A DNA stretch of 64,000 nucleotides from Pseudomonas cremoricolorata (lineage in GTDB: Bacteria; Pseudomonadota; Gammaproteobacteria; Pseudomonadales; Pseudomonadaceae). The position numbers were made by a program, and so were the translations under genes. Position 1 is the first letter of the stretch, and each line of letters opens with the position of its first letter. The notes beneath the pieces are model-generated. The model saw nothing but the letters and a program-made list of their open reading frames with translations, did not search any database and was not told where the DNA came from. Where the stretch lies: NCBI RefSeq assembly GCF_000759535.1, contig NZ_CP009455.1, positions 2,666,001 to 2,730,000 on the forward strand, read 5' to 3'. This document shows, piece after piece, positions 28,711-61,412 of this stretch.

Positions 28711-29637
28711 TCATAGTTTGTTCAATACTGCCGCCGCCAGCAGGCTCAGGTTGCCGGCCAGCGTCTGTCGATACACACCGGTTCTCCCCAGCAGGCGCAG
28801 GCGTTTGAGCAGTGGGCTGCGTCTGGCCACCTCGAACTGTTCGAGGATGCGCCGGTTTCTTTGGGGAAGGCTGGGCTTGTACATGGCCATTAGGGCGAGG
28901 TTCATGTCATTCCATTCGCTGAAGCGACCGCGCAGTGCGCAGGTCAGGCGGGTCAGCCGGCTACGCAGGCTGCTGTCACAGCCGATCAGGTTGGTGTGAT
29001 GCTGGCGATAGAGCAGCGTTGGCTGTGCGTCGTAGACGATCACGCCCTGGTAGCCACTGACGACAAGGTAGGTGAGCCAGTCATGGGCGACGATGTGCGC
29101 GCCGGGCCTGGTGGCGGCGAGCAGTTGCCGCGTGCATGCATTGATCAGCATGGTGTTCGCCCCCGCGAGGCTCTGCACCAATGCATTCTCGAAGCTGGGC
29201 GGCTTGTGAAAGTATGGCGAGAACCCTAGGTGCCTGCCCTGTGCATCGACCAGGTCGGTGCGCGAACAATACAGCGCCGGACCGTCCAGGCTGTGCTGGC
29301 GGAGTGCGGCGAGGCTTCTGGCCAGTTTGTCTTCAAGCCAGATGTCGTCCTGATCGCTGAACGCGAAATAGTCGCCTTTGACCGCCGGGTTTTGGATCAG
29401 TGAAAGGAAATTTCTGGCAAAGCCCTGGCGGGGTCCATCGAGAATGACGAGCTGATCGCCCAGGCGCTGCTGATACTGGCGAAGAATGTCGAGCGTCTCA
29501 TCGGTGGAACCGTCGTCAGACGCGTAGATCACCCAGCGTTCGTGGGTCTGGGCAATGAAGGAGTCGAGCTGTTCACGCAGGTAGGCTGAGCCGTTATAGG
29601 TACAAAGAAGAATCGCAATCACAGTGGGTTCGTTCAT
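28711..29637 (-). CDS. Family 2 glycosyltransferase, probable rhamnosyltransferase
   Basis: 308 residues. The GT-A domain has IAILLCTYNGSAYL, ASDDGSTDET and FSDQDDIWLEDK; HDWLTYL lies in the acceptor half. The motifs match those of the GT2 at 16198–17115 and of dTDP-rhamnose-using enzymes. It lies 363 bases from rmlC on the same strand and closes the polysaccharide locus. The upstream side (29638 onward) is a long non-coding gap, so it probably has its own promoter. Confidence 0.82.
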   Translation of the reverse strand: MNEPTVIAILLCTYNGSAYLREQLDSFIAQTHERWVIYASDDGSTDETLDILRQYQQRLGDQLVILDGPRQGFARNFLSLIQNPAVKGDYFAFSDQDDIWLEDKLARSLAALRQHSLDGPALYCSRTDLVDAQGRHLGFSPYFHKPPSFENALVQSLAGANTMLINACTRQLLAATRPGAHIVAHDWLTYLVVSGYQGVIVYDAQPTLLYRQHHTNLIGCDSSLRSRLTRLTCALRGRFSEWNDMNLALMAMYKPSLPQRNRRILEQFEVARRSPLLKRLRLLGRTGVYRQTLAGNLSLLAAAVLNKL

Positions 29638-30336
29638 TTTTCTTCTTTAGTAGAGCCGGCTTCAATGGTTTTCGAATCGATGTGGATCAGGCCAGGTTGA
29701 TTAAAGTAGCTCGCGAAGCGATCTGCCAGATTTTCAGCGCTATCGAACGGCCGTCGTCGGATTAAAGCGCCAGCATCCGTCACGAACCTGCTTGCACGAC
29801 TGAAGCACTGATGTCAGAGGGTCGCAGTTGGGGGTTGATTTTTCAATGCACGTCCAAGCCATGAGTCGTTATTAGGAATTCTCCTGATAGGAGTTCGGAT
29901 TTTTCCTACCAAAAGTATCAATCAGACATCTGCTTTTATTGCTGTTTTACTGCACTCTAATGGTTGTGTTTGGGTTGTCGGCCCTGCCTCGAGCGCAGCC
30001 TGCAATAACGCCGTGTCTTGGCATCAGCGCGCCCGGCGGGCCCGACTTAGGCCGTTTGAATAGGCGAAAATGTGAACCGTTTGGCCCATCCAGGCCGGCC
30101 AGGCAGCCTTAGGGTTTTCCGTAAACCGCCGACCGCGTATCATTCATTCACATATCTAGGAAACTTCCGACATCTTTATTGGACGAAGGTGTCTAGCTTT
30201 CCGTGGCGAGCCGACTGGCTTCAGATAATCAGGCGATCATCATTGACCTCGCGACCTGCCACACGACGGCCGGCCAAGCGTGCTGGCGGCGTGCCGCAGA
30301 TGTCGGTGCCCCCGATGAGTTTTGAAGGAATGGGTT
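29638..30336. promoter_or_regulatory. Long non-coding gap between O-antigen and PKS loci
   Basis: Nearly 700 bases without a credible gene. The section 29870–29970 is AT-rich and probably holds promoters for the two divergent units. Visible structure: a small hairpin CTCCT-GAT-AGGAG at 29881–29893, and an inverted repeat GGTTT-TCCGT-AAACC at 30113–30127. A 92-codon frame (30072–30350) reads across the end but has no family resemblance and a skewed Arg/Ser-rich content. No recognisable insertion-sequence remnant was found. Confidence 0.5.
30113..30127. repeat. Inverted repeat upstream of the PKS gene
   Basis: GGTTT and AAACC arms with a 5-base spacer, about 210 bases before the PKS start. It could be an operator half-site pair; no regulator gene lies in the locus, so the assignment is only structural. 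Confidence 0.4.
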
Positions 30337-33300
30337 TTGATCAAGCGTAGACAGGTAGCAATCGTTGGTTCTTCATTCCGCTTCCCCGGCTCGACGTCGG
30401 CCAGCTTCTGGCAAAACCTGATGGATGGACGCGATCTGGTCACCCAGGTCGATCCGTCCCGCTGGGACAAGGCGGAGTTCCTCCACCCGGACAAAGCCAA
30501 CCCCGCCACCAGTTACACGTTCGCGGCCGGCACGCTGGGCGACATCAGTGCGTTCGATGCGGGCTTCTTCAACATCTCGCCCCGCGAAGCGGCGATGATG
30601 GACCCGCAGCAGCGCATGCTGCTGGAGATGTGCTGGGAAACCTTCGAGAACGCCGGCATCAAGCCATCGAGCCTGCGTGGCAGCAATTGTGGCGTGTACC
30701 TAGGCATCGCCGGCGTGGAGCAGGCGTACCGCCTGGTCGATGACCTGGCCTCGATCGATGCCGCCACCGCCACCGGCAACACCATGAGCATCGCTGCCAA
30801 CCGGCTGTCGTTCTTCTACGACCTGCGCGGTCCGAGCATGGCTATCGACACCGCTTGTTCGTCGTCGCTGGTGGCCTTCCATCAGGCCTGTCAGGCGATT
30901 CTCAGCGGTGATGTCGATCAGGCGGTGACCGGCGGCATCAGCCTGCACATGCACCCGTTCGGCTTCATGATCTTCGCCAAGGCCACCATGCTCTCGCGTA
31001 CCGGGCGTTGCCAGTCGTTCGACGACAACGGCGACGGTTACGCGCGCTCCGAAGGCGGTGGCCTGTTCCTGCTCAAGGACTATGACCAAGCCGTGGCAGA
31101 CGGCAACACCATCCTTGCGGTGGTTGCCGGCAGCGCGGTCAATACCGATGGACGCAAGTCGAGCCTGACCCTGCCCAATGCCGAGGCCCAGGCTGCGCTG
31201 CTCGACAGCACCTACGCCAAGGCGGGCATCGAACCTTCCCAGCTGGACTACCTGGAAGCCCACGGTACCGGCACCGCGGTCGGCGATCCGATCGAGACCC
31301 GCGCCATCGGCCAGGCCCTGGCGCAGCGCCGTGCTGCCGGCAATCCGCTGCCGATCGGCTCGGTGAAGAGCAACGTCGGCCACCTGGAGGCCGCCTCCGG
31401 GGTGGCCGGGATGGTCAAGGCGCTGCACTGCCTGCACACCCGTACCGTGCCGGCCACCATTGGTGTGAAAGCGCTCAACGCTACTATCCCGTTCGCCGAC
31501 CTCAACCTGCAGGTGATCACCGAACCGCTGTCGCTGAAAGCCGAGGGCCCGCTGACCGTGGGCATCAACTCATTCGGCTTCGGCGGCGCCAACGCCCACG
31601 TGATTCTGCAGAGCCCCGCGCCTCAGGCCCAGGCAGCACGTCCGGCGCAACCCCGCCGTGTACCGCTGCTGCTCAGCGCCAAGAGCGAGCAGGGCCTGCG
31701 CGCCACTGCCGAACGCTTCGCTGCCTTCCTGGCCGAGCAGCCTCAGGCTGACTATTACGATGTGGCCTACCAGGCCATGTTCCGCCGCGACGCCCACGCC
31801 CAGCGCCTGGTGCTGATCAGTGACGATCCGGCCGAAGCGGCCCAGGCGCTGGATGACTACGCCCAGGACCCAAGCCTCAGCGAACTGAGCGCGGTGCTCG
31901 AAAGCGGTCAGGCGCTGGATGCGCCGAGCGGTCCGGTATTCGTCTATTCGGGCAACGGCTCGCAGTGGCAGGGTATGGGCCGCGCGCTGCTCGAGCATCC
32001 GCAGTTCGTCGCGGGTGTGCGTGAGGTCGATGCGCTGTTCCAGCCGCTGGCAGGCTTCTCGCTGGAGGCCGAGCTTCGCGGTGAAAACGGTGACGAGCGC
32101 TACGCGCGTACCGAGATCGCCCAGCCGGCGCTGTTCGCCCTGCAAGTGGCGGTCACCCAGGTACTGCGCAGCGAGGGCTTCACGCCGCAGGCGGTGGTCG
32201 GCCACAGCGTCGGTGAAGTGGCTGCGGCCTGGGCCAGTGGTGCGCTGAGCCTGAGCGATGCGACCCAAGTGATCTATCACCGCAGTCGTCTGCAGGGCCT
32301 GACCCGTGGCAGCGGGCGGATGACCGCGGTGGGCTTGTCGGGTGAAGCCACGGCAGCGCTGATCGCCGAGCTGGGCCTGGGCGAGCGTATCGTGGTCGCT
32401 GGCGAGAACAGCGAACGCGGCGCCACCGTGGCCGGCGACGTCGATGGGCTGAGCGTGCTGGAACAGGTGCTCACCGAGCGGCAGGTGTTCGCCCGTCGCC
32501 TCGATCTGGACTACGCCTTCCACTCGGCGGCGATGGACCCGATCGAGCCGCAGGTCATTGCCGATCTTGCCCATATCACCCCGCGTAGCGGCGACATTGC
32601 GTTCTATTCCACCGTGGTCGGCGGTGCTCTCGACGGCCAACGCCTGGACAGCCAGTACTGGTGGCAGAACATCCGCCTGCCGGTGCTGTTCCAGGGCGCT
32701 ATCGATGCGCTGGTGCGCGATGGCTCGAACCTGTTCGTCGAAATCGGCCCGCACCCGATTCTGCGCAGCTACGTCACTGACGTGCTCAACGCCTGTGAGC
32801 AACCCGGCCAGGTGGTCGCCACCCTCAAGCGCAACGAGCACAGCCCGCTGCTGCTCGAGCGCTGCGTCGCTCGTCTGTTGATCGCCGGCATCGAACCCCA
32901 GGGCCAGCCGCGCTTTCCGGTGGTTGGCCAGCCAGTGCGCCTGCCCAACTACGCCTGGCAGCGCGACAGCTTCCTGCTGCCGGTCAGCGCCGAAAGTGGC
33001 GGTACTCTGCAACGTCAGCGCAGCCATCCGCTGCTCGGCTACACCTTGCCGGATCAGCCGCTGACCTGGGAAAGCCGTCTCGATACCCAGCTGTTCCCCA
33101 CCCTGGGCGATCACAAGGTTGGCGAGTCAGTGCTGTTCCCCGGCGCCGGCTTCACCGAACTGGCCATGGCGGCGGCGCAACTGCACCAGCCGGGCGAGTT
33201 CATCGATATCGAAGAGCTGGAGATTCACAACCCGTTGCTGCTAGGCAGTGACGGCAGCAAGAAAGTGCGGGTGCAGATCGAGGAAGCCGACGGCACCTTG

Positions 33301-36300
33301 CGCATTCGCTCGCGGACCTTGGCCCACCAGGAAGACTGGGTGCAGCACGTGGTTGCGCGTCTACCCGGTGAAGCCCGTGGCGTGCTGCTCGAAGCCCGCG
33401 CGCCGGCGCTGCCTGAGCGTGCGGCCGACTTCACCGGTGAACAACACCTGGCGCTGACCCGCGCGGTAGGGCTGAACTACGGCCCGGCCTATCAGTCGGT
33501 GGCGGCTGCCTGGGTCGAGCCGGGTCGCATCCTTGCCCAGTTGAGCGTGCCTGCGGCCATCGTCCAGGAATTGCCGCAGTTGCACCTGCACCCGGCTTTG
33601 CTCGACGGCGCATTCCAACTGATTACCGAGCTGCTGGCCAGCAAGCCTGGGCGCAACCGTGGCCTGGCCTTCATTCCGGTCAAGTTCGGGCGCATCGCCT
33701 TCAGCGTTGCCGGTGGCGTGCCCGAGCGGGTCGAGGTGCGCCAAAGCAAGCGCACCGAGCATTCGCTGCTGGTGGATTTCACTCTGTTCGACGCCAGCGG
33801 CGCTGCCGTGCTGGCGATCAAGGATGCGCGTTTCCGCGGCGTGCGCCTGCAATACGACCGTGCCGTGCAGGTCAAGCGCCTGGGCCATGTCGGTATCGCA
33901 GCGCCGGGCCAAGTGGTGCCGTTGCAGCGCTCGGCCTCGGGTTCTGCGGCGCTGGTCGAAGCCATGGCCAGCCTGCAGGATGAACCTGCGCAGCAACGCT
34001 ACCTCAATGAGGTCGAGCCGTTGCTCGATATGCTGTGCGCAAGCTTCGTGCTCGACCTGGTCGAGCAGGCTGGTGGCCGCCTGAGTGCCGAGCAACTGGC
34101 GCTGTGGGCGCAGAGCCACGGCGACTGGTTGTCCAGCCTGTTGCGCCACGCCGAGCAGGACGGCAGCCTGCTGCGCAGTGACGACGGCAGCGTGAGCCTG
34201 GCGGCGCTGGACGAGCGCCCAAGCAGCGAAGCGATTTGGCAGGAGCTGTTCCAGAGCTACCCGGAGTACTTCCAGATCATCCATTCGGTGGGTCGCATTG
34301 GCCGCCACCTCAAGGGCCTGCTCGACGGCGAGGCCACGCTGGACAGCTTGCAGCCGCGCGAAACCAGCGGCGCCAGCCTGGCACGCCTGGTGCTTGGCGC
34401 TGCCGGCCAGCAACGCCTGCGTAGCGGGATTGCCGCGAGCCTGGCCGAGCGCCTGGCGCACTTGCCCGAAGGCCAGCGTCTGCGGGTGCTGGAATTCGGT
34501 GTCGGCGGGCCATCGTTCGCCGAACTGTTGTACCCGGGGCTGGATTTTGACCGCCTCGACTATTGCTACTGCGTCGCCGAGCCTGACCTGGAGCAGCGCC
34601 TGGGCGACGATTGCCCCGCCTTGCAGGTGATCGATCTGCAGCAACTGGCCGAGGCGGGCAGCTTCGACTGGGTACTGTTGCCGAGCGATCTGGGTGCCCT
34701 TGGCGTGCTCGGCAATGCCTTGGCGCAGGCGGCGGCGCGGCTCAACCCGCAGGGTCAACTGGCGCTGCTGGCGCAGTACCCGGCGCGTTGGGTCGACTTC
34801 GTGTTCGGCGCGCAGAACGACTGGTGGCTGGCCGGCCCGCAGCAGGCGCTGTCGCGTCAGCAGGCGCCGAGCTTCTGGATGCATGAATTGCAGCGCCATG
34901 GCCTGAGCGCGGTCAGCACCCTCGAGGCGCTACCAGGCACCGCCTGCGGCAGCTACGTGCTGCTCGCCGACAGTGGCGCCAAGGCCGTGCCTGTCCAGGC
35001 TGCCCCCGCACCTGCGCATTGGGCGCTGCTAGGCTCGGCCGATCAGGCTGCCTGCAAGGCATTGCTGGCTGGCCTGAGTGACGCCGGCCAGCAGGTCAGC
35101 CTGCTGCAACCGGGCGATGCCCAGGCGCTGGCAGCGCAGCTGGCCGCGCTCGACCAGGCGCCGCAGCACATCATTCACCTGGCAGGCCTGGACAGCGCGG
35201 CTGGCCTCGATGGGCAGACCGAGCGCTGCCTGCTGGCCGCGGCCCTGGTGCAGGCCTGCGAAGCGCAAGGCATCGCCCCGCAGTGCTGGCTGATCAGTCG
35301 CGGCGCCGCTGAGCACTGGCATGACGCTGCGGCCAGCAGCAGCCTGCCAGGGCTGGCCGACGCGGCGTTCTGGGGCTTTGGCCGGACCTTGGCCAACGAG
35401 TCGCCGAGCTGCCGTATTCGCCTGCTCGACCTGGCCGCGGGCACTGCCATCGAGCAGATGCTGCCGGCGCTGTTGCATGCCGACGGCGAAACCGAACTGG
35501 CACTCGACGCCCAAGGCCGGCGTTACGTGCCGCGTCTGCGTGTGCTCGAGCGCCAGGCGCAAGATCACAGCGAGCATCAGGGCTGGGTATGCCTGGGCTT
35601 CGACTTGCCCGGCCAATTGCGCAACCTGCGCTGGGAAGTGCGTGAGCCGCAGCAGCCTGCCGCCGATCAGCTCGACATCGCGGTACGCGCCACGGGCCTG
35701 AACTTCCGCGACGTGATGTTCGCCCTCGGCTTGTTGTCCGATGAAGCCATCGAAAACGGATTCTCTGGCCCGACCCTGGGCTTCGAGTTCGCCGGTGTGG
35801 TGCAGGGCAAGGGCAGCGCCGTGGAAGGTGACTTCGCCCCGGGCGATCGCGTGGTCGGCTTCGGCCCTTGTAGCTTCGCCAACCGCCTGGTGACCAACGC
35901 CAATGCCGTGGCGCGGATTCCCGAGGGCATGTCCTTCGAAGCCGCAGCGACCATTCCCAGCACCTTCTTCACCGTCTACTACGCGCTGCACCACCTGGCG
36001 CGCCTGGAGCCCGGCGAGAGCGTGCTGATCCACGGCGCCGCAGGCGGTGTGGGCATCGCCGCGATCCAGATCGCCAAATGGCTCGGTGCCGACATCCACG
36101 CCACTGCTGGCAGCGACGAGAAGCGCGACTTCCTGCGCCTGCTCGGCGTCGACAAGGTCTACGATTCGCGTTCGCTGGCCTATGCCGACCAAGTGTTGGC
36201 AGCGACCAACGGGCGGGGCGTCGACGTGGTGCTCAACTCCCTGGCCGGCGAGGCGATCAACCGCAACCTGCGCGTGCTCAAGCCGTTCGGCCGCTTCCTC

Positions 36301-37845
36301 GAACTGGGCAAGCGCGACTTCTACCAGAACACCCGCATCGGCCTGCGACCGTTCCGCAACAACATCAGCTACTTCGGCATCGATGCCGACCAGTTGATGA
36401 GCGAACGCCCGCAGCTGACCCGCCGCCTGTTCGGCGAAATGATGGGCCTGTTCGAGCAGGGCATCCTGCACCCGTTGCCGTTCCGCGAGTTCGATGCCAA
36501 TCAGGTGGTCGAAGCCTACCGCTACATGCAGCAGGCGCGGCAGATCGGCAAGATCGTCGTCACCTACGGCAACCCCATCGAGCAGACCGTCGATACCCGT
36601 GAGCAGATCAGCGGCGAACTGCGCCTGCAGGACGATGCCACCTACCTGGTCACCGGTGGGCTGGGCGGCTTCGGCCTGCGCACCGCGCAATGGCTGATCG
36701 ACAAGGGCGCGCGGCACCTGGTACTGCTCGGCCGGCGTGGCGTCGACAGCGTCGAGGCACAACCCAGCCTTGCCCAGTGGCAGGCGGCGGGCCTCGATGT
36801 GCGTGCCGTGGCTTGCGACATCACCGAGCGCGCCGCGCTGGCCCAGGTGCTCGAGCAGATCGACGCCAGTGCCTGGCCGCTGCGCGGCCTGGTGCATGCC
36901 GCGACGGTGATCGACGACGGCCTGATCCGCAACCTCGATGCGGCGCAGATGCAGCGCGTGCTGGCACCCAAGGCCCAAGGTGCGCAGTACCTGCACGAAC
37001 TGACCGCGCACCTGGCGCTGGACTTCTTCGTCATGTTCTCGTCGGCCACGACCTTGTTCGGCAACCCTGGCCAGGCCAACTACGTGGCGGCCAACCATTG
37101 GCTCGAAGCCCTGGCGCGCCATCGCCGCGCCCAGGGCCTGGCTGCCACGGCAGTGCTGTGGGGCGCCATCGACGACGTCGGCTTCCTGGCCCGCAACTCG
37201 CAGATCAAGGATGCCTTGCAGAGTCGTATGGGCGGCGCAGCCTTGCGCGCCGAAGTTGCCCTGGCCCAGTTGGAAGCCATGCTGCTGGCGGGCGAAGATG
37301 GCCACGGCGTGCTGGAACTGGACTTCAAGGCGCTGTCGCGCTTCCTGCCCACCTCCAGCAGCCCGCGCTTCATCGAGCTGGCCCGCGCCCATAGCGGTGA
37401 CCAGGACGATGACAACGATGGCGAAGACATCCAGCGCATGCTCGCAGAACTCAGTGATGAAGAGCTGCTCGAGCGCTTCGCCGAAATGCTCAAGCACGAG
37501 GTGTGTGAAATCCTTCGCCTGCCGGCGGCGCGCCTGGATACCCAGCGGCCGTTGCAGGAACTGGGTCTGGACTCGCTGATGAGTGTCGAGCTGGTGGTGG
37601 CGCTGGAAGAACGCTTCGGGATTCGCTTGCCGGTCATGGAACTCAGCGACAGTTCCAGCATCGACAAACTGAGCGTGCGCCTGCTCGAGCTGCTGCGCGG
37701 TGACGCCAGCGACGAGGCGGCCCCGGATAACCTGGCGCAGAACCTGCTTGCCCGTCATGGCAGCGAGCTGGATGCCGCGCAGATGGCTGCGCTGAACGCC
37801 GACCTGGCCGATGCCAGCTCGGCGCCTAACCGATTGATTGACTAA
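30337..37845 (+). CDS. Highly reducing single-module type I polyketide synthase (KS-AT-DH-psiMT-ER-KR-ACP)
   Basis: 2502 residues from TTG 30337, chosen for AAGGA 7 bases upstream; TTG 30322 is an alternative. Domains: KS with Cys174 (DTACSSS), His309 (EAHGTGT) and His349 (NVGHLEAASG); AT with Ser624 (GHSVGE) and YAFHS at 726–730, the Phe favouring malonyl-CoA; DH with His926 and Asp1090 in DGAFQ; a methyltransferase-like domain (about 1290–1530) whose SAM loop reads LEFGVGGPS and is probably inactive; ER with HGAAGGVG from 1899; KR with GGLGGFG at 2107–2113, Ser2236, Tyr2249 and an IDD motif (B-type-like); ACP with Ser2413 in GLDSL. A tail of about 50 residues follows. There is no thioesterase or reductase domain. 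One full reducing set suggests iterative synthesis of a saturated chain. The gene is intact. Confidence 0.93.
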   Translation: MIKRRQVAIVGSSFRFPGSTSASFWQNLMDGRDLVTQVDPSRWDKAEFLHPDKANPATSYTFAAGTLGDISAFDAGFFNISPREAAMMDPQQRMLLEMCWETFENAGIKPSSLRGSNCGVYLGIAGVEQAYRLVDDLASIDAATATGNTMSIAANRLSFFYDLRGPSMAIDTACSSSLVAFHQACQAILSGDVDQAVTGGISLHMHPFGFMIFAKATMLSRTGRCQSFDDNGDGYARSEGGGLFLLKDYDQAVADGNTILAVVAGSAVNTDGRKSSLTLPNAEAQAALLDSTYAKAGIEPSQLDYLEAHGTGTAVGDPIETRAIGQALAQRRAAGNPLPIGSVKSNVGHLEAASGVAGMVKALHCLHTRTVPATIGVKALNATIPFADLNLQVITEPLSLKAEGPLTVGINSFGFGGANAHVILQSPAPQAQAARPAQPRRVPLLLSAKSEQGLRATAERFAAFLAEQPQADYYDVAYQAMFRRDAHAQRLVLISDDPAEAAQALDDYAQDPSLSELSAVLESGQALDAPSGPVFVYSGNGSQWQGMGRALLEHPQFVAGVREVDALFQPLAGFSLEAELRGENGDERYARTEIAQPALFALQVAVTQVLRSEGFTPQAVVGHSVGEVAAAWASGALSLSDATQVIYHRSRLQGLTRGSGRMTAVGLSGEATAALIAELGLGERIVVAGENSERGATVAGDVDGLSVLEQVLTERQVFARRLDLDYAFHSAAMDPIEPQVIADLAHITPRSGDIAFYSTVVGGALDGQRLDSQYWWQNIRLPVLFQGAIDALVRDGSNLFVEIGPHPILRSYVTDVLNACEQPGQVVATLKRNEHSPLLLERCVARLLIAGIEPQGQPRFPVVGQPVRLPNYAWQRDSFLLPVSAESGGTLQRQRSHPLLGYTLPDQPLTWESRLDTQLFPTLGDHKVGESVLFPGAGFTELAMAAAQLHQPGEFIDIEELEIHNPLLLGSDGSKKVRVQIEEADGTLRIRSRTLAHQEDWVQHVVARLPGEARGVLLEARAPALPERAADFTGEQHLALTRAVGLNYGPAYQSVAAAWVEPGRILAQLSVPAAIVQELPQLHLHPALLDGAFQLITELLASKPGRNRGLAFIPVKFGRIAFSVAGGVPERVEVRQSKRTEHSLLVDFTLFDASGAAVLAIKDARFRGVRLQYDRAVQVKRLGHVGIAAPGQVVPLQRSASGSAALVEAMASLQDEPAQQRYLNEVEPLLDMLCASFVLDLVEQAGGRLSAEQLALWAQSHGDWLSSLLRHAEQDGSLLRSDDGSVSLAALDERPSSEAIWQELFQSYPEYFQIIHSVGRIGRHLKGLLDGEATLDSLQPRETSGASLARLVLGAAGQQRLRSGIAASLAERLAHLPEGQRLRVLEFGVGGPSFAELLYPGLDFDRLDYCYCVAEPDLEQRLGDDCPALQVIDLQQLAEAGSFDWVLLPSDLGALGVLGNALAQAAARLNPQGQLALLAQYPARWVDFVFGAQNDWWLAGPQQALSRQQAPSFWMHELQRHGLSAVSTLEALPGTACGSYVLLADSGAKAVPVQAAPAPAHWALLGSADQAACKALLAGLSDAGQQVSLLQPGDAQALAAQLAALDQAPQHIIHLAGLDSAAGLDGQTERCLLAAALVQACEAQGIAPQCWLISRGAAEHWHDAAASSSLPGLADAAFWGFGRTLANESPSCRIRLLDLAAGTAIEQMLPALLHADGETELALDAQGRRYVPRLRVLERQAQDHSEHQGWVCLGFDLPGQLRNLRWEVREPQQPAADQLDIAVRATGLNFRDVMFALGLLSDEAIENGFSGPTLGFEFAGVVQGKGSAVEGDFAPGDRVVGFGPCSFANRLVTNANAVARIPEGMSFEAAATIPSTFFTVYYALHHLARLEPGESVLIHGAAGGVGIAAIQIAKWLGADIHATAGSDEKRDFLRLLGVDKVYDSRSLAYADQVLAATNGRGVDVVLNSLAGEAINRNLRVLKPFGRFLELGKRDFYQNTRIGLRPFRNNISYFGIDADQLMSERPQLTRRLFGEMMGLFEQGILHPLPFREFDANQVVEAYRYMQQARQIGKIVVTYGNPIEQTVDTREQISGELRLQDDATYLVTGGLGGFGLRTAQWLIDKGARHLVLLGRRGVDSVEAQPSLAQWQAAGLDVRAVACDITERAALAQVLEQIDASAWPLRGLVHAATVIDDGLIRNLDAAQMQRVLAPKAQGAQYLHELTAHLALDFFVMFSSATTLFGNPGQANYVAANHWLEALARHRRAQGLAATAVLWGAIDDVGFLARNSQIKDALQSRMGGAALRAEVALAQLEAMLLAGEDGHGVLELDFKALSRFLPTSSSPRFIELARAHSGDQDDDNDGEDIQRMLAELSDEELLERFAEMLKHEVCEILRLPAARLDTQRPLQELGLDSLMSVELVVALEERFGIRLPVMELSDSSSIDKLSVRLLELLRGDASDEAAPDNLAQNLLARHGSELDAAQMAALNADLADASSAPNRLID

Positions 37846-37854
37846 GAGCCCTCG

Positions 37855-39207
37855 ATGACAGCAAGAACGCCTACGGGCCTCGGTGTGGATGCCAAGCAAC
37901 GTCTGATCCAGCAAGCGCTGGCGCGCCGGCGCAGTGAGCCGGAACAGGCGAGCGGCGCCACATTGGAGCAGGCACAACAGGCTGCGCAAAAAGTCCCCGA
38001 GGCCTTCTACCGCTTCGACCAGTACCCGGGTTACCAGCACCTGCGGGTGATGCAACAGACCGGTGCGCGAATGGGCCTGAGCAGCCCTTTCTTCCGCCTG
38101 CACCAAGGCACTGCCGGGGCGCAGACGGACATCGCCGAGCGCCGCTACGTCAACTTCGCCAGCTATAACTACCTGGGCTATTCCGGGCACGCCGAGGTCG
38201 CCGAGGCGGCCAAGGCGGCAATCGATCGCTACGGCACCTCGGTATCGGCCAGCCGCCCGGTCTCCGGCGACCGTCCGTTGCACCGCGAGCTGGAGCGCGA
38301 GCTGGCCGAGCTGTACCAGGTGGATGACGCGGTGGTGATGGTCAGCGGCCATGCCACCAACGTCACCACCATCGGCTATCTGTTCGGCCCGCGCGACCTG
38401 GTGCTGCATGACGAGCTGATCCACAACAGCGTGCTGCAAGGCATCCAGTTGTCTGGCGCACGGCGGCTGTCATTCGCCCACAACGACTGGCAAGCCCTTG
38501 ATCGTTTGCTGGGTGAGCAGCGCCAGCACTTCGAGCGCGTGCTGGTGGTGGTTGAGGGCATCTACAGCATGGACGGCGACTACCCGGACCTGCCGCGCTT
38601 CGTCGAGCTCAAGCGCAAGCACAAGGTCTTCCTGATGGTCGACGAGGCGCATTCGCTGGGGGTCATGGGGCGCACCGGCCAAGGCATTCGCGAGCATTTC
38701 CAGCTGGCCGGCGATGACGTCGATATCTGGATGGGCACCCTGAGCAAGACCCTCGCCAGTTGCGGCGGATACATTGCCGGGTGCAGCGCGCTGGTCGAGC
38801 ATCTGAAATTCTTCGCCCCAGGCTTTCTCTACAGTGTCGGCATGCCGCCGTCGGTAACCGCGGCTGCGTTGGCCGCGGTGCGCCTGCTCAAGGCTGATCA
38901 AGGGGAGAGGGTCGGACAGTTGCAGGCACGCGGCGAACTGTTCCTGCGATTGGCGATTGCCGCCGGGCTGGACACGGCCACCAGCACCGGGCTTGCGGTG
39001 ATTCCGGTGATTACCGGCAGCTCGTTCAAGGCCGGACGGCTGTCCAGTGCACTGTTCGAGCGGGGTATCAATGCCCAACCCATCGTCTATCCGGCGGTGC
39101 CGGAGCAGGCTGCGCGGGTGCGCTTTTTCGTCTCGTGCGAGCACAGTGAAGCGCAGATTCGCGAGACGGTCGCCATTGTCGCCGAAGAAATGGCACGGCT
39201 CGCCTGA
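37855..39207 (+). CDS. PLP-dependent alpha-oxoamine synthase (BioF/SPT family)
   Basis: 450 residues. The family joins an acyl thioester to an amino acid with loss of CO2. Visible motifs: NFASYNYLGYSG, the PLP-stacking SGHATN, DEAHSLGVMGRTG and TLSKTLASCGG with the Schiff-base Lys298. An N-terminal extension of about 95 residues precedes the core, longer than in BioF or Kbl. It starts 9 bases after the PKS stop, so co-transcription is nearly certain, and no biotin or threonine-degradation genes are nearby. It most likely off-loads the PKS chain from the ACP as an aminoketone, as known for PKS-linked oxoamine synthases of fumonisin and saxitoxin synthesis. The amino acid used is unknown. Confidence 0.9.
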   Translation: MTARTPTGLGVDAKQRLIQQALARRRSEPEQASGATLEQAQQAAQKVPEAFYRFDQYPGYQHLRVMQQTGARMGLSSPFFRLHQGTAGAQTDIAERRYVNFASYNYLGYSGHAEVAEAAKAAIDRYGTSVSASRPVSGDRPLHRELERELAELYQVDDAVVMVSGHATNVTTIGYLFGPRDLVLHDELIHNSVLQGIQLSGARRLSFAHNDWQALDRLLGEQRQHFERVLVVVEGIYSMDGDYPDLPRFVELKRKHKVFLMVDEAHSLGVMGRTGQGIREHFQLAGDDVDIWMGTLSKTLASCGGYIAGCSALVEHLKFFAPGFLYSVGMPPSVTAAALAAVRLLKADQGERVGQLQARGELFLRLAIAAGLDTATSTGLAVIPVITGSSFKAGRLSSALFERGINAQPIVYPAVPEQAARVRFFVSCEHSEAQIRETVAIVAEEMARLA

Positions 39208-39444: not shown

Positions 39445-41079
39445 ATGTTCAAGAAAGCTGGCAAGACCCTGCTGGGTCTGGCTGTTGCCGCGAGCTTCAT
39501 GCACGCGCACGCCGCAGAAACCAAGAAAGTAGACGTGCTGCTGGTCGGCGGCGGGATCATGAGCTCCACCCTGGCGGTGTGGCTCAATGAGCTCGAGCCG
39601 AACTGGTCGATGGAGATGGTCGAGCGCCTGGACGGCGTGGCTGAAGAGAGTTCCAACGGCTGGAACAATGCGGGCACCGGTCACTCTGCGCTGGCTGAGC
39701 TGAACTACACCCCGGAAAACCAGGATGGCAGCATCAACATCAGCAAGGCCATCGAGATCAACGAAGCGTTCCAGATCTCGCGCCAGTTCTGGTCGTGGCA
39801 GGTGCGTCAGGGTGTGCTGAACAACCCGCACTCGTTCATCAACACCACGCCGCACATGAGCTTCGTGTGGGGTGATGACAACATCAAGTTCCTCAAGAAG
39901 CGTTACGACGCGCTGCAAGCCAGCCCGCTGTTCCGCCCGATGCAGTACTCTGAAGACCACGCGCAGATCGCCAAGTGGGTTCCGCTGATGATGGAAGGCC
40001 GTGACCCGAGCCAGAAGCTCGCGGTGACCTGGACCCCGATCGGCACTGACGTCAACTTCGGCGAGATCACCCGCCAGTTCGTCAAGCACTTGCAGACCCG
40101 TGACAACTTCGACCTGAAGCTGTCCAGCGAAGTGCAGGACATCACCCGCAACGACGACGGCTCGTGGCACGTCGAGTACAAGAACCTCAAGGATGGCAGC
40201 GAGTCGGCCACCGACGCCAAGTTCCTGTTCATCGGTGCTGGCGGCGGCGCGCTGAAGCTGCTGCAGAAATCGGGCATCGAAGAAGCCAAGGAATACGCAG
40301 GCTTCCCGGTCGGCGGTTCGTTCCTGGTCACCGAGAACCCGAGCGTGGCCATGCAGCACATGGCCAAGGCCTACGGCATTGCCTCCACCGGTGCGCCGCC
40401 CATGTCGGTTCCGCACCTGGACACCCGTGTGCTGGACGGCAAGCGGGTGATCCTGTTTGGCCCATTCGCCACCTTTTCGACCAAGTTCCTGAAGAACGGC
40501 TCGTACCTCGACCTGCTCAAGAGCACCACGCTGCACAACGTGTGGCCAATGACCAAGGTCGGTGTCGATCAATACCCACTGGTTGAATACCTTGCTGGTC
40601 AGCTGATGCTGTCGGACGAAGACCGCTTCGAAGCGCTGCGCACCTACTTCCCGCACGCCAAGAAAGAAGACTGGCGTCTGTGGCAGGCCGGTCAGCGCGT
40701 GCAGATCATCAAGCGTGATGCCGAACACGGCGGCGTGCTGAAGCTGGGTACCGAAGTGGTGGCCTCCAAGGACCGCACCCTGGCCGGTCTGCTGGGTGCC
40801 TCGCCAGGTGCCTCCACCGCAGCGCCGATCATGCTCAACGTGCTCGAAACCATCTTCAAGGAGAAGGTCGCGACCCCTGAGTGGCAAGCCAAGCTGCATC
40901 AGATCGTGCCGAGCTATGGCACCAAGCTGAACGACTCGGCTGCCGCGGTGCAGAAAGAGTGGAACTACACCGCCGAAGTGCTGCAGCTGGAGAAGCCGCC
41001 GGTCATCGACCAGAGCGTCGAAGCCGCCCCGGCCGACGCGCCTGCCAAGAACGACCCGGCACGCGACATGGCGCTGTAA
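39445..41079 (+). CDS. mqo: Malate:quinone oxidoreductase
   Basis: 544 residues; FAD enzyme oxidising malate to oxaloacetate with electrons to quinone, at the inner membrane. The FAD motif [13 protein letters not shown] begins about residue 30, and [12 protein letters not shown] is the Mqo signature. The first 24 residues ([23 protein letters not shown]) look like a Sec signal peptide with an AHA-A cleavage site, unusual for a peripheral membrane protein expected on the cytoplasmic face. A Lys/Pro/Ala-rich tail ends the protein. The 237-base gap upstream separates it from the oxoamine synthase, so it is probably transcribed independently. Confidence 0.94.
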
Positions 41080-59171: not shown

Positions 59172-59333
59172 CCAGCGCAGGACGCAGCGGGCGGCGTGAC
59201 ATAATTTTCACACTCGATTCCTGAAAATCCGCGCCGCATAATGCTGCGTCCGTCCGCTGCCAGTTTGTCATTGCGGGCGCTGTCGACGACCCAGCTTTTT
59301 CCGCAAACCTGCATTCTTAGGACTTCTCCATTC

Positions 59334-61412
59334 ATGGCTCATCCGAATGCCTTGAAGCAATGGGGCGTGCGCGCTCCCTTTACCCCAACCGTTTCCCGCC
59401 ACCTGGCGTACACCGCGCTCAGCGCCCTGACAATCATGCTCATGCTGAGTCTGGTACGCCTGGCGCTGTTGCTCTACAACAGCGATATGGTCGGTGATAC
59501 CCCTACCGCCACGGTGGCGGAAGGGTTTCTCAACGGCCTGCGTTTCGACCTGCGGGTGGTGGTCTATCTGAGCGTACCGCTGCTGCTGGCCACCCTCAGT
59601 ACCTGGGCAATGGCCCGACGTGGCTTATTTCGCCTGTGGCTGACCCTGACCTCCAGCGTGGTGCTGCTGCTCGGGCTGATGGAGCTGGACTTCTACCGCG
59701 AGTTCCACCAGCGCTTGAACGGCCTGGTCTTCCAGTATGTGAAGGAAGACCCGAAGACGGTGCTGAGCATGCTCTGGTATGGCTTCCCCGTGGTGCGCTA
59801 CCTGCTGGCCTGGCTGTTCGGCACCTGGTTGCTGAGCCTGGTGTTCAAAGGCATCGACCGCATCACCCGCGGCGGCAGCAATCCAGACGCCACCCTCGAC
59901 GCAAGCCGCGCGACGCCCTGGTACAACCGTCTGGCAGTGTTCATGGTGATTCTGCTGGTTGCCGTGGTGGCCGCCCGTGGCACCCTACGCCAGGGCCCAC
60001 CGATGCGCTGGGGCGATGCGTTCACCACCGACTCCAATTTCGTCAACCAGCTGGGTCTGAACGGCACGCTGACCCTGATCGATGCCGCCAAGAGCCGCTT
60101 CGGTGAAGACCGCGCCAACATCTGGAAAGCCACCCTCGACCCGCAGGTGGCGCTCGAGAGCGTGCGCAAGCAACTGCTGACCGAGCACGACACCCTGGTC
60201 GATGCCGACCAGGCGGCGATCCGCCGTGACTTCGTCCCGCCTGCGGACAAGACGCTGCCGATCAAGAACGTCGTGGTGATTCTGATGGAAAGCTTCGCCG
60301 GCCACTCCGTCGGTGCCCTCGGCGGCCCCAACGACATCACCCCGAATTTCGACCAGTTGGCCAAAGAGGGCCTGCTGTTCGACCGCTTCTTCTCCAACGG
60401 CACCCATACCCACCAGGGCATGTTCGCCACAATGGCCTGCTTCCCCAACCTGCCGGGCTTCGAGTACCTGATGCAGACGCCCGAGGGCGGGCACAAACTC
60501 TCCGGGCTGCCGGCGCTGCTCAGCGCCCGTGACTACGACGATGTGTACGTTTACAACGGTGACTTCGCCTGGGACAACCAGTCCGGCTTCTTCGGCAACC
60601 AAGGCATGACCACCTTCATCGGCCGCAACGACTTCGTCAATCCGGTGTTCTCCGACCCGACCTGGGGCGTCTCCGACCAGGACATGTTCGATCGCGGCGC
60701 ACAGGAACTGGCCAACAACTACGGCAAGAAGCCGTTCTATGCGCTGCTGCAGACCTTGTCCAACCACACCCCCTACGCCTTGCCCAAAGACCTGCCGGTG
60801 GCGCCGGTCACCGGCCAGGGCCGATTGGATGAACACCTCACCGCCATGCGCTATTCGGACTGGGCGCTCGGTCAGTTCTTCGAGAAGGCGCGCAAGGAGC
60901 CGTATTTCAAGGAGACCTTGTTCGTCATCGTCGGCGACCACGGCTTCGGCAACCATCAGCAGGTCACCGAGCTCGACCTCGGCCGCTTCAACATCCCGCT
61001 GTTGCTGATCGCCCCGGGCATTCAGGACAAGTTCGGCGCGGTCAGCCACACCGTGGGTACTCAGGTGGACGTCGTGCCGACCATCATGGGCCGTCTGGGT
61101 GGGCCAACCCGCCACCAATGCTGGGGGCGTGACCTGCTCAGCCTGCCAGCGGGCGATCCTGGGGTGGGCATGATCAAGCCGTCGGGCAGTGAGCAGATCG
61201 TCGGTCTGGTCACCGGTGACCGCGTGCTGATCGAGTCCAAGGACATGTCGCCGCGCCTGTATCGTTACCAGCTGGGCCGCGAGTTCAAGGCCGAGCTGAT
61301 CGAAAGTCCCGATCAGCCACAGTTGCTCAAGACCCTCGAAGCGTTCATCCAGACCGCTACCAAGAGCCTGCTGGACAACACCGCCGGAGTCGTCCACGGC
61401 ACCCCGCAATAA
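59334..61412 (+). CDS. LtaS-like membrane sulfatase / phosphoglycerol transferase family protein
   Basis: 692 residues: five N-terminal membrane helices (about residues 25–220), then a periplasmic sulfatase-type domain. VVVILMESFAGHS binds metal by its Glu; NGTHTHQGMFAT (about 355–366) holds the likely Thr nucleophile, probably Thr359; VGDHGFGNHQ gives further metal ligands. In Gram-negatives such proteins are related to OpgB-like phosphoglycerol transferases, so decoration of periplasmic glucans or other glycans is possible; the substrate is unknown. The ATG at 59334 gives MAHPNALKQW; the frame open upstream has no better start. Confidence 0.86.
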   Translation: MAHPNALKQWGVRAPFTPTVSRHLAYTALSALTIMLMLSLVRLALLLYNSDMVGDTPTATVAEGFLNGLRFDLRVVVYLSVPLLLATLSTWAMARRGLFRLWLTLTSSVVLLLGLMELDFYREFHQRLNGLVFQYVKEDPKTVLSMLWYGFPVVRYLLAWLFGTWLLSLVFKGIDRITRGGSNPDATLDASRATPWYNRLAVFMVILLVAVVAARGTLRQGPPMRWGDAFTTDSNFVNQLGLNGTLTLIDAAKSRFGEDRANIWKATLDPQVALESVRKQLLTEHDTLVDADQAAIRRDFVPPADKTLPIKNVVVILMESFAGHSVGALGGPNDITPNFDQLAKEGLLFDRFFSNGTHTHQGMFATMACFPNLPGFEYLMQTPEGGHKLSGLPALLSARDYDDVYVYNGDFAWDNQSGFFGNQGMTTFIGRNDFVNPVFSDPTWGVSDQDMFDRGAQELANNYGKKPFYALLQTLSNHTPYALPKDLPVAPVTGQGRLDEHLTAMRYSDWALGQFFEKARKEPYFKETLFVIVGDHGFGNHQQVTELDLGRFNIPLLLIAPGIQDKFGAVSHTVGTQVDVVPTIMGRLGGPTRHQCWGRDLLSLPAGDPGVGMIKPSGSEQIVGLVTGDRVLIESKDMSPRLYRYQLGREFKAELIESPDQPQLLKTLEAFIQTATKSLLDNTAGVVHGTPQ

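Follow-up and report, generated by a model that had tools for sequence, protein, structure and literature searches.

What lipid is made by a polyketide synthase (PKS) encoded directly ahead of an alpha-oxoamine synthase (AOS), and what does the cell use it for? Such a gene pair lies in a 64-kb stretch of a 4.78-Mb Pseudomonas genome (G000:C1:2666001-2730000, hereafter the window), and its two genes are homologues of sgaA and sgaB from Pseudomonas fluorescens MYb115. Based on genome associations and the published biochemistry of these homologues, we propose, with a probability of roughly 0.6, that SgaAB supplies a dedicated sphingoid lipid anchor for a capsule exported by an ATP-binding cassette (ABC) transporter. 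The chemistry by which a PKS and an AOS yield sphinganine is already known for the MYb115 homologue; the capsule-anchor role, which we consider the most likely one, is new as stated. The locus alone is an incomplete pathway, the reductase, the candidate head-group transferase, and the transferases for 3-deoxy-D-manno-oct-2-ulosonic acid (Kdo) being encoded elsewhere in the genome.

The gene pair and its homologues

The sgaA homologue (positions 30337..37845 of the window, forward strand) encodes a single-module, fully reducing type I PKS of 2502 aa, identified from its open reading frame (ORF), Pfam and NCBIfam matches, relatives, and motifs. It is followed on the same strand by the sgaB homologue (37855..39207), encoding a pyridoxal phosphate (PLP)-dependent AOS of 450 aa that resembles serine palmitoyltransferase (SPT), and the gap between the two ORFs is 9 bases (37846-37854). 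This arrangement had been read in a preliminary description made from the letters alone, and the ORFs, Pfam matches, and motifs bear it out. By Pfam, the domain order of SgaA is ketosynthase (KS), acyltransferase (AT), dehydratase (DH), enoylreductase (ER), ketoreductase (KR), and acyl carrier protein (ACP). The SgaB homologue has an extension of about 75 residues ahead of its AOS core.

SgaB relatives were collected from GTDB r220 with one genome per species, giving 99 relatives, of which 80 loci were kept. The window proteins align near full length to those of 20 Pseudomonas loci, with 62-98% identity for SgaA and 73-99% for SgaB, so the gene pair is not a chance arrangement. The closest of the 80 loci is L001 from Pseudomonas cremoricolorata (97.6% and 98.9% identity, respectively). 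The forward primer published for MYb115 sgaA has an exact match in 3 of 95 loci (L002, L008, and L023), to whose proteins those of the window are about 79% identical for SgaA and 86-87% for SgaB. Neither of the two MYb115 reverse primers has an exact match in these 95 loci, from which MYb115 itself is therefore absent.

The same description had left open whether the pair had been studied, and had suggested that the oxoamine synthase releases the PKS chain as a sphingoid-like product; Peters et al. (2025) demonstrated this for the homologous pair (PMC12134224; this and the other papers are cited from their accessible sections). In MYb115, sgaA and sgaB are required for C24, C26, and C28 sphinganines, which are lost in both mutants, and purified PfSgaB condenses acyl-CoA with L-serine, an SPT activity for which the acyl-CoAs served as surrogate substrates (PMC12134224). 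Species heavier by 154 Da were proposed from their mass to be phosphoglycerol (PG) sphingolipids, and the short-chain dehydrogenase/reductase (SDR) RS19775 was proposed as the ketosphinganine reductase SgaC, sgaB being RS19800 (PMC12134224). Provided that locus tags step by five, as we presume, these two tags fit the order sgaB, phyH, kpsC2, gnat, transferase, sgaC of L008, the locus carrying the MYb115 primer.

The window shares with the MYb115 system the two-gene order, the TTG start, and the kinds of PKS and AOS, and its genome likewise has an SgaC-type reductase. As in the SgaAB cluster, the single-module reducing PKS is directly followed by an SPT-like AOS with a PLP lysine (K298), whereas the KDSR-like SDR SgaC is not in cis, the reductase and its operon lying 1.95 Mb from sgaAB. 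Judged by sequence, the pair belongs to the SgaA/SgaB family, and we infer its product in this genome. Against solved structures, the SgaB homologue matches SPTs with E 1.7e-57 and a KBL/BioF-type chain slightly better, with E 1.7e-58, and an SPT can therefore not be told apart by sequence alone.

A capsule locus elsewhere in the genome

None of the 22 SDR matches of the genome lies inside the window, and no reductase stands beside sgaAB in L001 either. The SgaC orthologue is found at G000:C1:4660188-4660958 and is 88% identical to that of L003, while the next-best match in the genome reaches 40% over part of its length. The stretch around 4.66 Mb (L091) begins with kpsF, in reverse orientation, and a transketolase gene (named by eye), and continues with an operon encoding, in this order, a kinase-like protein, KpsC, KpsS, SgaC, a sulfatase-fold transferase, a GNAT acyltransferase, a second KpsC-like protein, and a PhyH dioxygenase. 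There is a 4-base overlap between the ORFs of KpsS and SgaC, and the ORF of SgaC also overlaps that of the transferase if the latter starts at its first start codon. KpsS and the dual-module KpsC are well over the PF05159 cut-off, and the N- and C-terminal halves of KpsC match solved KpsC chains with E 4e-65 and 2.5e-74, respectively. The best solved matches of the transferase are GacH (E 2.8e-11), LtaP, and LtaS, all of them glycerol-phosphate transferases.

Just upstream (L092), there are genes for KpsM, an ATPase, KpsE, a lipoprotein with Poly_export and SLBB domains, a mannose-1-phosphate guanylyltransferase-type protein, glycosyltransferases, KdsA, and KdsC, with KpsF after them. The ATPase is called KpsT by its position, its best models being those of teichoic acid export, below cut-off; KdsA, the KdsC-type subfamily, and KpsF are over cut-off. 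With a KpsM/T/E/D export set and Kdo supply genes close by, L091 and L092 together look like a full ABC-dependent capsule locus. The GNAT acyltransferase (L091:10489-11085) and PhyH dioxygenase (L091:13194-14237) of the sgaC operon could, speculatively, N-acylate and hydroxylate the sphingoid base.

Linkage to capsule genes across loci

The neighbours of sgaB were scored with small purpose-built profiles, using E <1e-20 for linkage counts. A PKS stands just upstream of the AOS in 71 of the 80 loci, namely in 20/20 from Pseudomonas, 29/29 from the Burkholderia-Paraburkholderia-Caballeronia group, and 22/31 others. Among the PKS-linked loci, 58 of 71 carry KpsS, KpsC, KpsE, KpsD, or the transferase in the examined flank, with 16/20, 28/29, and 14/22 in the three groups. 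In the 16 linked Pseudomonas loci, genes of the sgaC operon follow sgaB at a distance of no more than 10 kb. A motif scan places the gene for an SDR of 258 aa, on the opposite strand, some 3-8 kb past the downstream end of sgaB in 12 Pseudomonas loci, and the profile finds it in 14; the motif scan, covering 84 loci, placed SgaC downstream of sgaB in three other loci as well. The notion that all SgaB relatives are of the Sga type was rejected, since 9 of the 80 loci, some of them on short contigs (e.g., L068), have no PKS just upstream by the rule applied. In the planctomycete relatives L064, L065, and L067 (54-58% identity), the surrounding DNA examined gave no PKS match.

Two of the four unlinked Pseudomonas loci, L004 and L010, reach contig ends shortly after sgaB, and the genomes of all four have an SgaC orthologue elsewhere (88-98% identity). 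In L001/G199 and L009/G201, sgaB and the capsule genes are on different contigs, and the 10-kb flank of sgaB is free of the latter. Across the 20 genomes examined, an SgaC match with E <=1e-48 is present in 17, the others being G203 (L011), G217, and G218. The L011 locus of Pseudomonas paraversuta (L011:11428-19785) has kept sgaAB, while sgaC and kpsS are missing and the transferase is truncated; genome G195 has the same gene content, and in both, part of the pathway has been lost naturally.

In Burkholderia lata (L094/L034) and Paraburkholderia ginsengisoli (L093/L054), genes for KpsS, the SDR, the transferase, the PKS, an LpxC-like protein, and the AOS follow one another in this order, with KpsE adjoining; family checks covered KpsE of L093, KpsS of L094, and LpxC of L054, and the remaining genes were named by eye or because they had served as queries. 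The best match of the B. lata SDR in the window's genome is SgaC (E 1.7e-49), followed at a distance by one with E 2.3e-17. An SgaC-like gene lies just past the transferase, where the examined Burkholderia flank ends, in five loci of this group (L034, L045, L052, L054, and L062), with contig identity confirmed for L034 and L054. The gene for an LpxC-type deacetylase between PKS and AOS occurs in 28 of the 29 Burkholderia/Paraburkholderia/Caballeronia loci; that of L054 (9055-9969) is above the NF009666 cut-off, and another such gene stands beside the transferase in the gammaproteobacterial L029.

Co-occurrence within two genera

In a sample of 199 Pseudomonas genomes, with sgaB counted at >=74% identity, sgaB was found in 7 genomes, sgaC in 7, the transferase in 8, and KpsS in 7. 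All seven sgaB genomes carry the transferase (Fisher 3.6e-12), which in G156 is split over two contigs, and six of the seven also have sgaC and KpsS (Fisher 6e-10), so that all four genes occur together in six genomes. Genome G040, with an identity of 46%, was left out of the sgaB count; its inclusion gives 8 sgaB genomes and a Fisher value of 2.4e-9. The KpsC/KpsS family PF05159 (E <=1e-20) occurs in 8 of the 199 genomes, seven of which have sgaB; the eighth is G154.

The second sample comprised 77 genomes of the genus of Paraburkholderia ginsengisoli (G215). The AOS was found in 19 of them at >=74% identity, a count that leaves out four genomes with only 43-47% matches as well as weaker or partial second matches, and KpsS in 17 (E <=1e-40). 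All 17 genomes with KpsS carry the AOS (Fisher 3.5e-15). The two genes are on one contig, 10.9-15.0 kb apart, in 16 of these 17 genomes and on two contigs in the remaining one.

Proposed pathway and the capsule lipid genes

According to our proposal, SgaA would act as an iterative, highly reducing PKS whose ACP carries the growing saturated acyl chain to a very great length, as genetics have shown for MYb115. SgaB would condense this chain with L-serine under loss of CO2 to give 3-ketosphinganine, consistent with the published activity of PfSgaB, and SgaC would reduce it to sphinganine, as proposed by Peters et al. The LtaS/GacH-like transferase encoded next to sgaC, an assignment made in the present analysis, may then add phosphoglycerol to give PG-sphinganine. 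With its one chain and its phosphoglycerol head, PG-sphinganine would resemble lyso-phosphatidylglycerol, which KpsS is known to accept, and could substitute for it. KpsS and KpsC, also encoded in the sgaC operon, would add the Kdo linker onto PG-sphinganine, and the neighbouring KpsMTED-type genes would export the polysaccharide.

In the systems described, (lyso-)phosphatidylglycerol is the acceptor on which KpsS places Kdo, with KpsC carrying out the extension (PMC7694667, PMC12220298). The proposed system resembles the group 2/3 capsules of E. coli and Neisseria in having KpsS, a dual-module KpsC, KpsM/T/E/D-type export, and Kdo supply genes; those capsules use phosphatidylglycerol or its lyso form, whereas our proposal is a PG-sphingoid lipid that has one chain and is dedicated to the capsule. 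A second likeness is to fungal systems of the Fum8/sphingofungin type, in which an oxoamine synthase also releases the PKS chain. To our knowledge, the fungal products are free metabolites, and we know of no capsule genes in these systems. A KDSR-like reductase is common to the fungal pathway and the SgaC scheme (PMC12134224).

Genes of this kind have been described under wcb names. In Cobetia marina, wcbPQRT downstream of kpsSC are reported to encode capsule lipid biosynthesis, with little known of their functions, and WcbQ is annotated as a lipoteichoic acid synthase (PMC11766843). The names O, P, Q, R, S, and T of the wcbPQRT and wcbO-T capsule clusters fit the B. lata and P. ginsengisoli order, a mapping made from order and annotation and not from comparison with B. 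pseudomallei sequence. The accessible sections on the wcb clusters of Cobetia (PMC11766843) and of B. pseudomallei CPS-I (PMC2945791, PMC7858667) name no sphingolipid, and PMC7077878 puts forward, as a hypothesis, that wcbR mutations lower the B. pseudomallei capsule. Among the papers listed by literature searches, with subscription journals mostly outside their reach, titles and abstract openings gave no statement linking sphingolipids to capsules. The role of wcbPQRT in capsule lipid formation is already in print, and the identification of this lipid as phosphoglycerol-sphinganine is proposed here. At slightly better than even odds, we suppose that there is a class of Gram-negative capsules anchored by PKS-made PG-sphinganine instead of phosphatidylglycerol, and that SgaAB sphinganine is the wcbPQRT lipid, as anchor or precursor.

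Alternative explanations

Several observations weigh against a sphingoid capsule anchor. The sphinganines and PG-sphinganines of MYb115 could be end products. The SgaB homologue is below the NCBIfam cut-offs for SPT (NF047600, 280.9/640 bits; NF047599, 250.9/500; NF047603, 188.3/670), and the transferase is far below that of the LtaS equivalog (27.4/970 bits). KpsS is the best NCBIfam match of its L091 protein, below the equivalog cut-off (274.9/600 bits), and that protein matched no solved structure; KpsM (161.7/300 bits) and the KpsE family (290.9/437.5) are likewise best matches below cut-off. LtaS-type transferases work outside the inner membrane. A change of membrane side would thus be needed before KpsS, which acts at the cytoplasmic face of the inner membrane (PMC7694667). 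Deletion of a region including wcbR in B. pseudomallei reduced the capsule but did not abolish it (PMC7858667). As to linkage, 13 of the 71 loci lack KpsS, KpsC, KpsE, KpsD, and the transferase in the examined flank, and the count of linked loci falls to 37/71 if only KpsS, KpsC, and KpsE are considered. The Fisher values take no account of common descent, and the copies mostly form a single linked block; a clear split into two loci is confined to the lineage of the window (G000 together with P. cremoricolorata G199). Finally, G227 and G264 carry the AOS without KpsS.

The sphinganine and PG-sphinganine that result from SgaAB might instead be free lipids of the membrane or host-active metabolites that the cell secretes, with the capsule genes as mere neighbours. 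Free sphinganines and PG-sphinganines were indeed detected in MYb115, where worm protection correlates with their amount, and the strings 'capsul', 'kdo', and 'kps' do not occur in the main text of that paper (PMC12134224). Two genomes point in the same direction: in G195, as in L011, sgaC and KpsS are missing while sgaB and a truncated transferase remain, and in G154 it is sgaB that is missing at the threshold, with sgaC, KpsS, and the transferase all present. The G154 genes (sgaC, kpsS, kpsC-type genes, and the transferase) lie at G154:C16:41203-46361, and the absence of sgaB may reflect a draft gap or another source of lipid. However, several proteobacterial groups retain the KpsS/KpsC neighbourhood with differing gene orders, only this one of the eight Pseudomonas genomes with KpsC/KpsS-family genes lacks sgaB, and the association holds at a distance of 1.95 Mb or across contigs (L001/G199, L009/G201). 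We therefore regard a free-lipid function as possible but unlikely; judged by the gene partners, the signal or membrane-active lipid considered possible in the preliminary description is a less likely role than a capsule lipid anchor.

That the anchor is not sphingoid at all, the PKS giving an ordinary fatty acid chain and the AOS making another product, would agree with the guess of the Cobetia authors that the lipid carrier is 'probably fatty acids' (PMC11766843) and with the annotation of WcbR as a fatty acid synthase. We consider it improbable, as PfSgaB condenses acyl-CoA with L-serine, mutants in either gene lose sphinganines (PMC12134224), and the PKS is directly upstream of the AOS in all 20 Pseudomonas loci. 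A signal or antibiotic-like aminoketone, made by an AOS related to CqsA or to 8-amino-7-oxononanoate synthase, draws on the membership of all these enzymes in one superfamily. The SgaB homologue misses both curated cut-offs (CqsA-type NF005526, 150.9/428 bits; BioF TIGR00858, 327.2/426.45), which disfavours both assignments, and the published product of its homologue is sphinganine (PMC12134224). The genome also has other oxoamine-synthase-family genes, at 33% and 37% identity and probably BioF and Kbl, and an aminoketone is thus very improbable.

Domain organization and genomic surroundings

The SgaA ORF runs from 30322 to 37845 on the forward strand, with an in-frame TTG at 30337. This TTG is the likely start, because the motif GAAGGA (30324..30329, forward strand), read as a likely ribosome-binding site, precedes it by 7 bases and the MYb115 sgaAB forward primer begins at the same TTG, with 20 of 22 bases matching the window by eye. 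The domains, all on the forward strand, are KS (residues 5-425, 30349..31611; PF00109/PF02801, with NCBIfam KS models extending to 425), AT (534-853, 31936..32895; PF00698), DH (897-1168, 33025..33840; PF21089, PF14765, and motifs), ER (1776-2076, 35662..36564; PF08240, PF00107, and PF13602, with TIGR02824 to 2076), KR (2101-2279, 36637..37173; PF08659), and ACP (2385-2446, 37489..37674; PF00550). The ER domain was recognised through the zinc-dehydrogenase models of Pfam.

All active-site motifs searched for were found: C174, H309, and H349 in KS, GHSVGE and YAFHS in AT, HKVGESVLFP and DGAFQ in DH, GAAGGVG in ER, GGLGGFG with S and Y in KR, LGLDSL at residue 2409 in ACP, and GTLSKT, containing K298, in SgaB. 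We assume the usual active-site roles for these motifs, and the AT is presumably of the malonyl type. The interval between DH and ER (33841..35661, forward strand; about 600 residues) gave no Pfam methyltransferase match but contains LEFGVGG, a motif like those of methyltransferases, at residue 1385, and may be a pseudo-methyltransferase region.

Downstream of sgaB lies mqo for malate:quinone oxidoreductase (39445..41079, forward strand), outside the pathway. It also adjoins sgaB in L001, the only one of the 80 loci where mqo, lipocalin, and M18 peptidase genes stand beside sgaB, and the three were rejected as pathway parts. Upstream and divergent from sgaA is a glycosyltransferase family 2 gene (28711..29637, reverse strand), likewise outside the pathway, at the end of an O-antigen-type cluster (8906-29637). 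This cluster contains rhamnose genes, an ABC transporter with a Wzt_C domain in its ATPase, a DUF7657/DUF7654 protein, and a 1472-aa protein with a methyltransferase and two glycosyltransferase stretches; most loci include 1-3 kb of sequence before the PKS, which limits comparison of these genes. A sulfatase-family protein of 723 aa (PF00884) is encoded at 59241-61412.

Implications

If SgaAB does supply the capsule anchor, the finding would join work on PKS-derived bacterial sphingolipids with the wcb-type capsule lipid genes, and it would offer a candidate for the enzyme that attaches phosphoglycerol to the sphingolipids of MYb115. It would also help to explain why sgaAB homologues are common in Burkholderia. 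The capsule would then have an anchor with a pathway of its own, separate from the housekeeping phospholipids.

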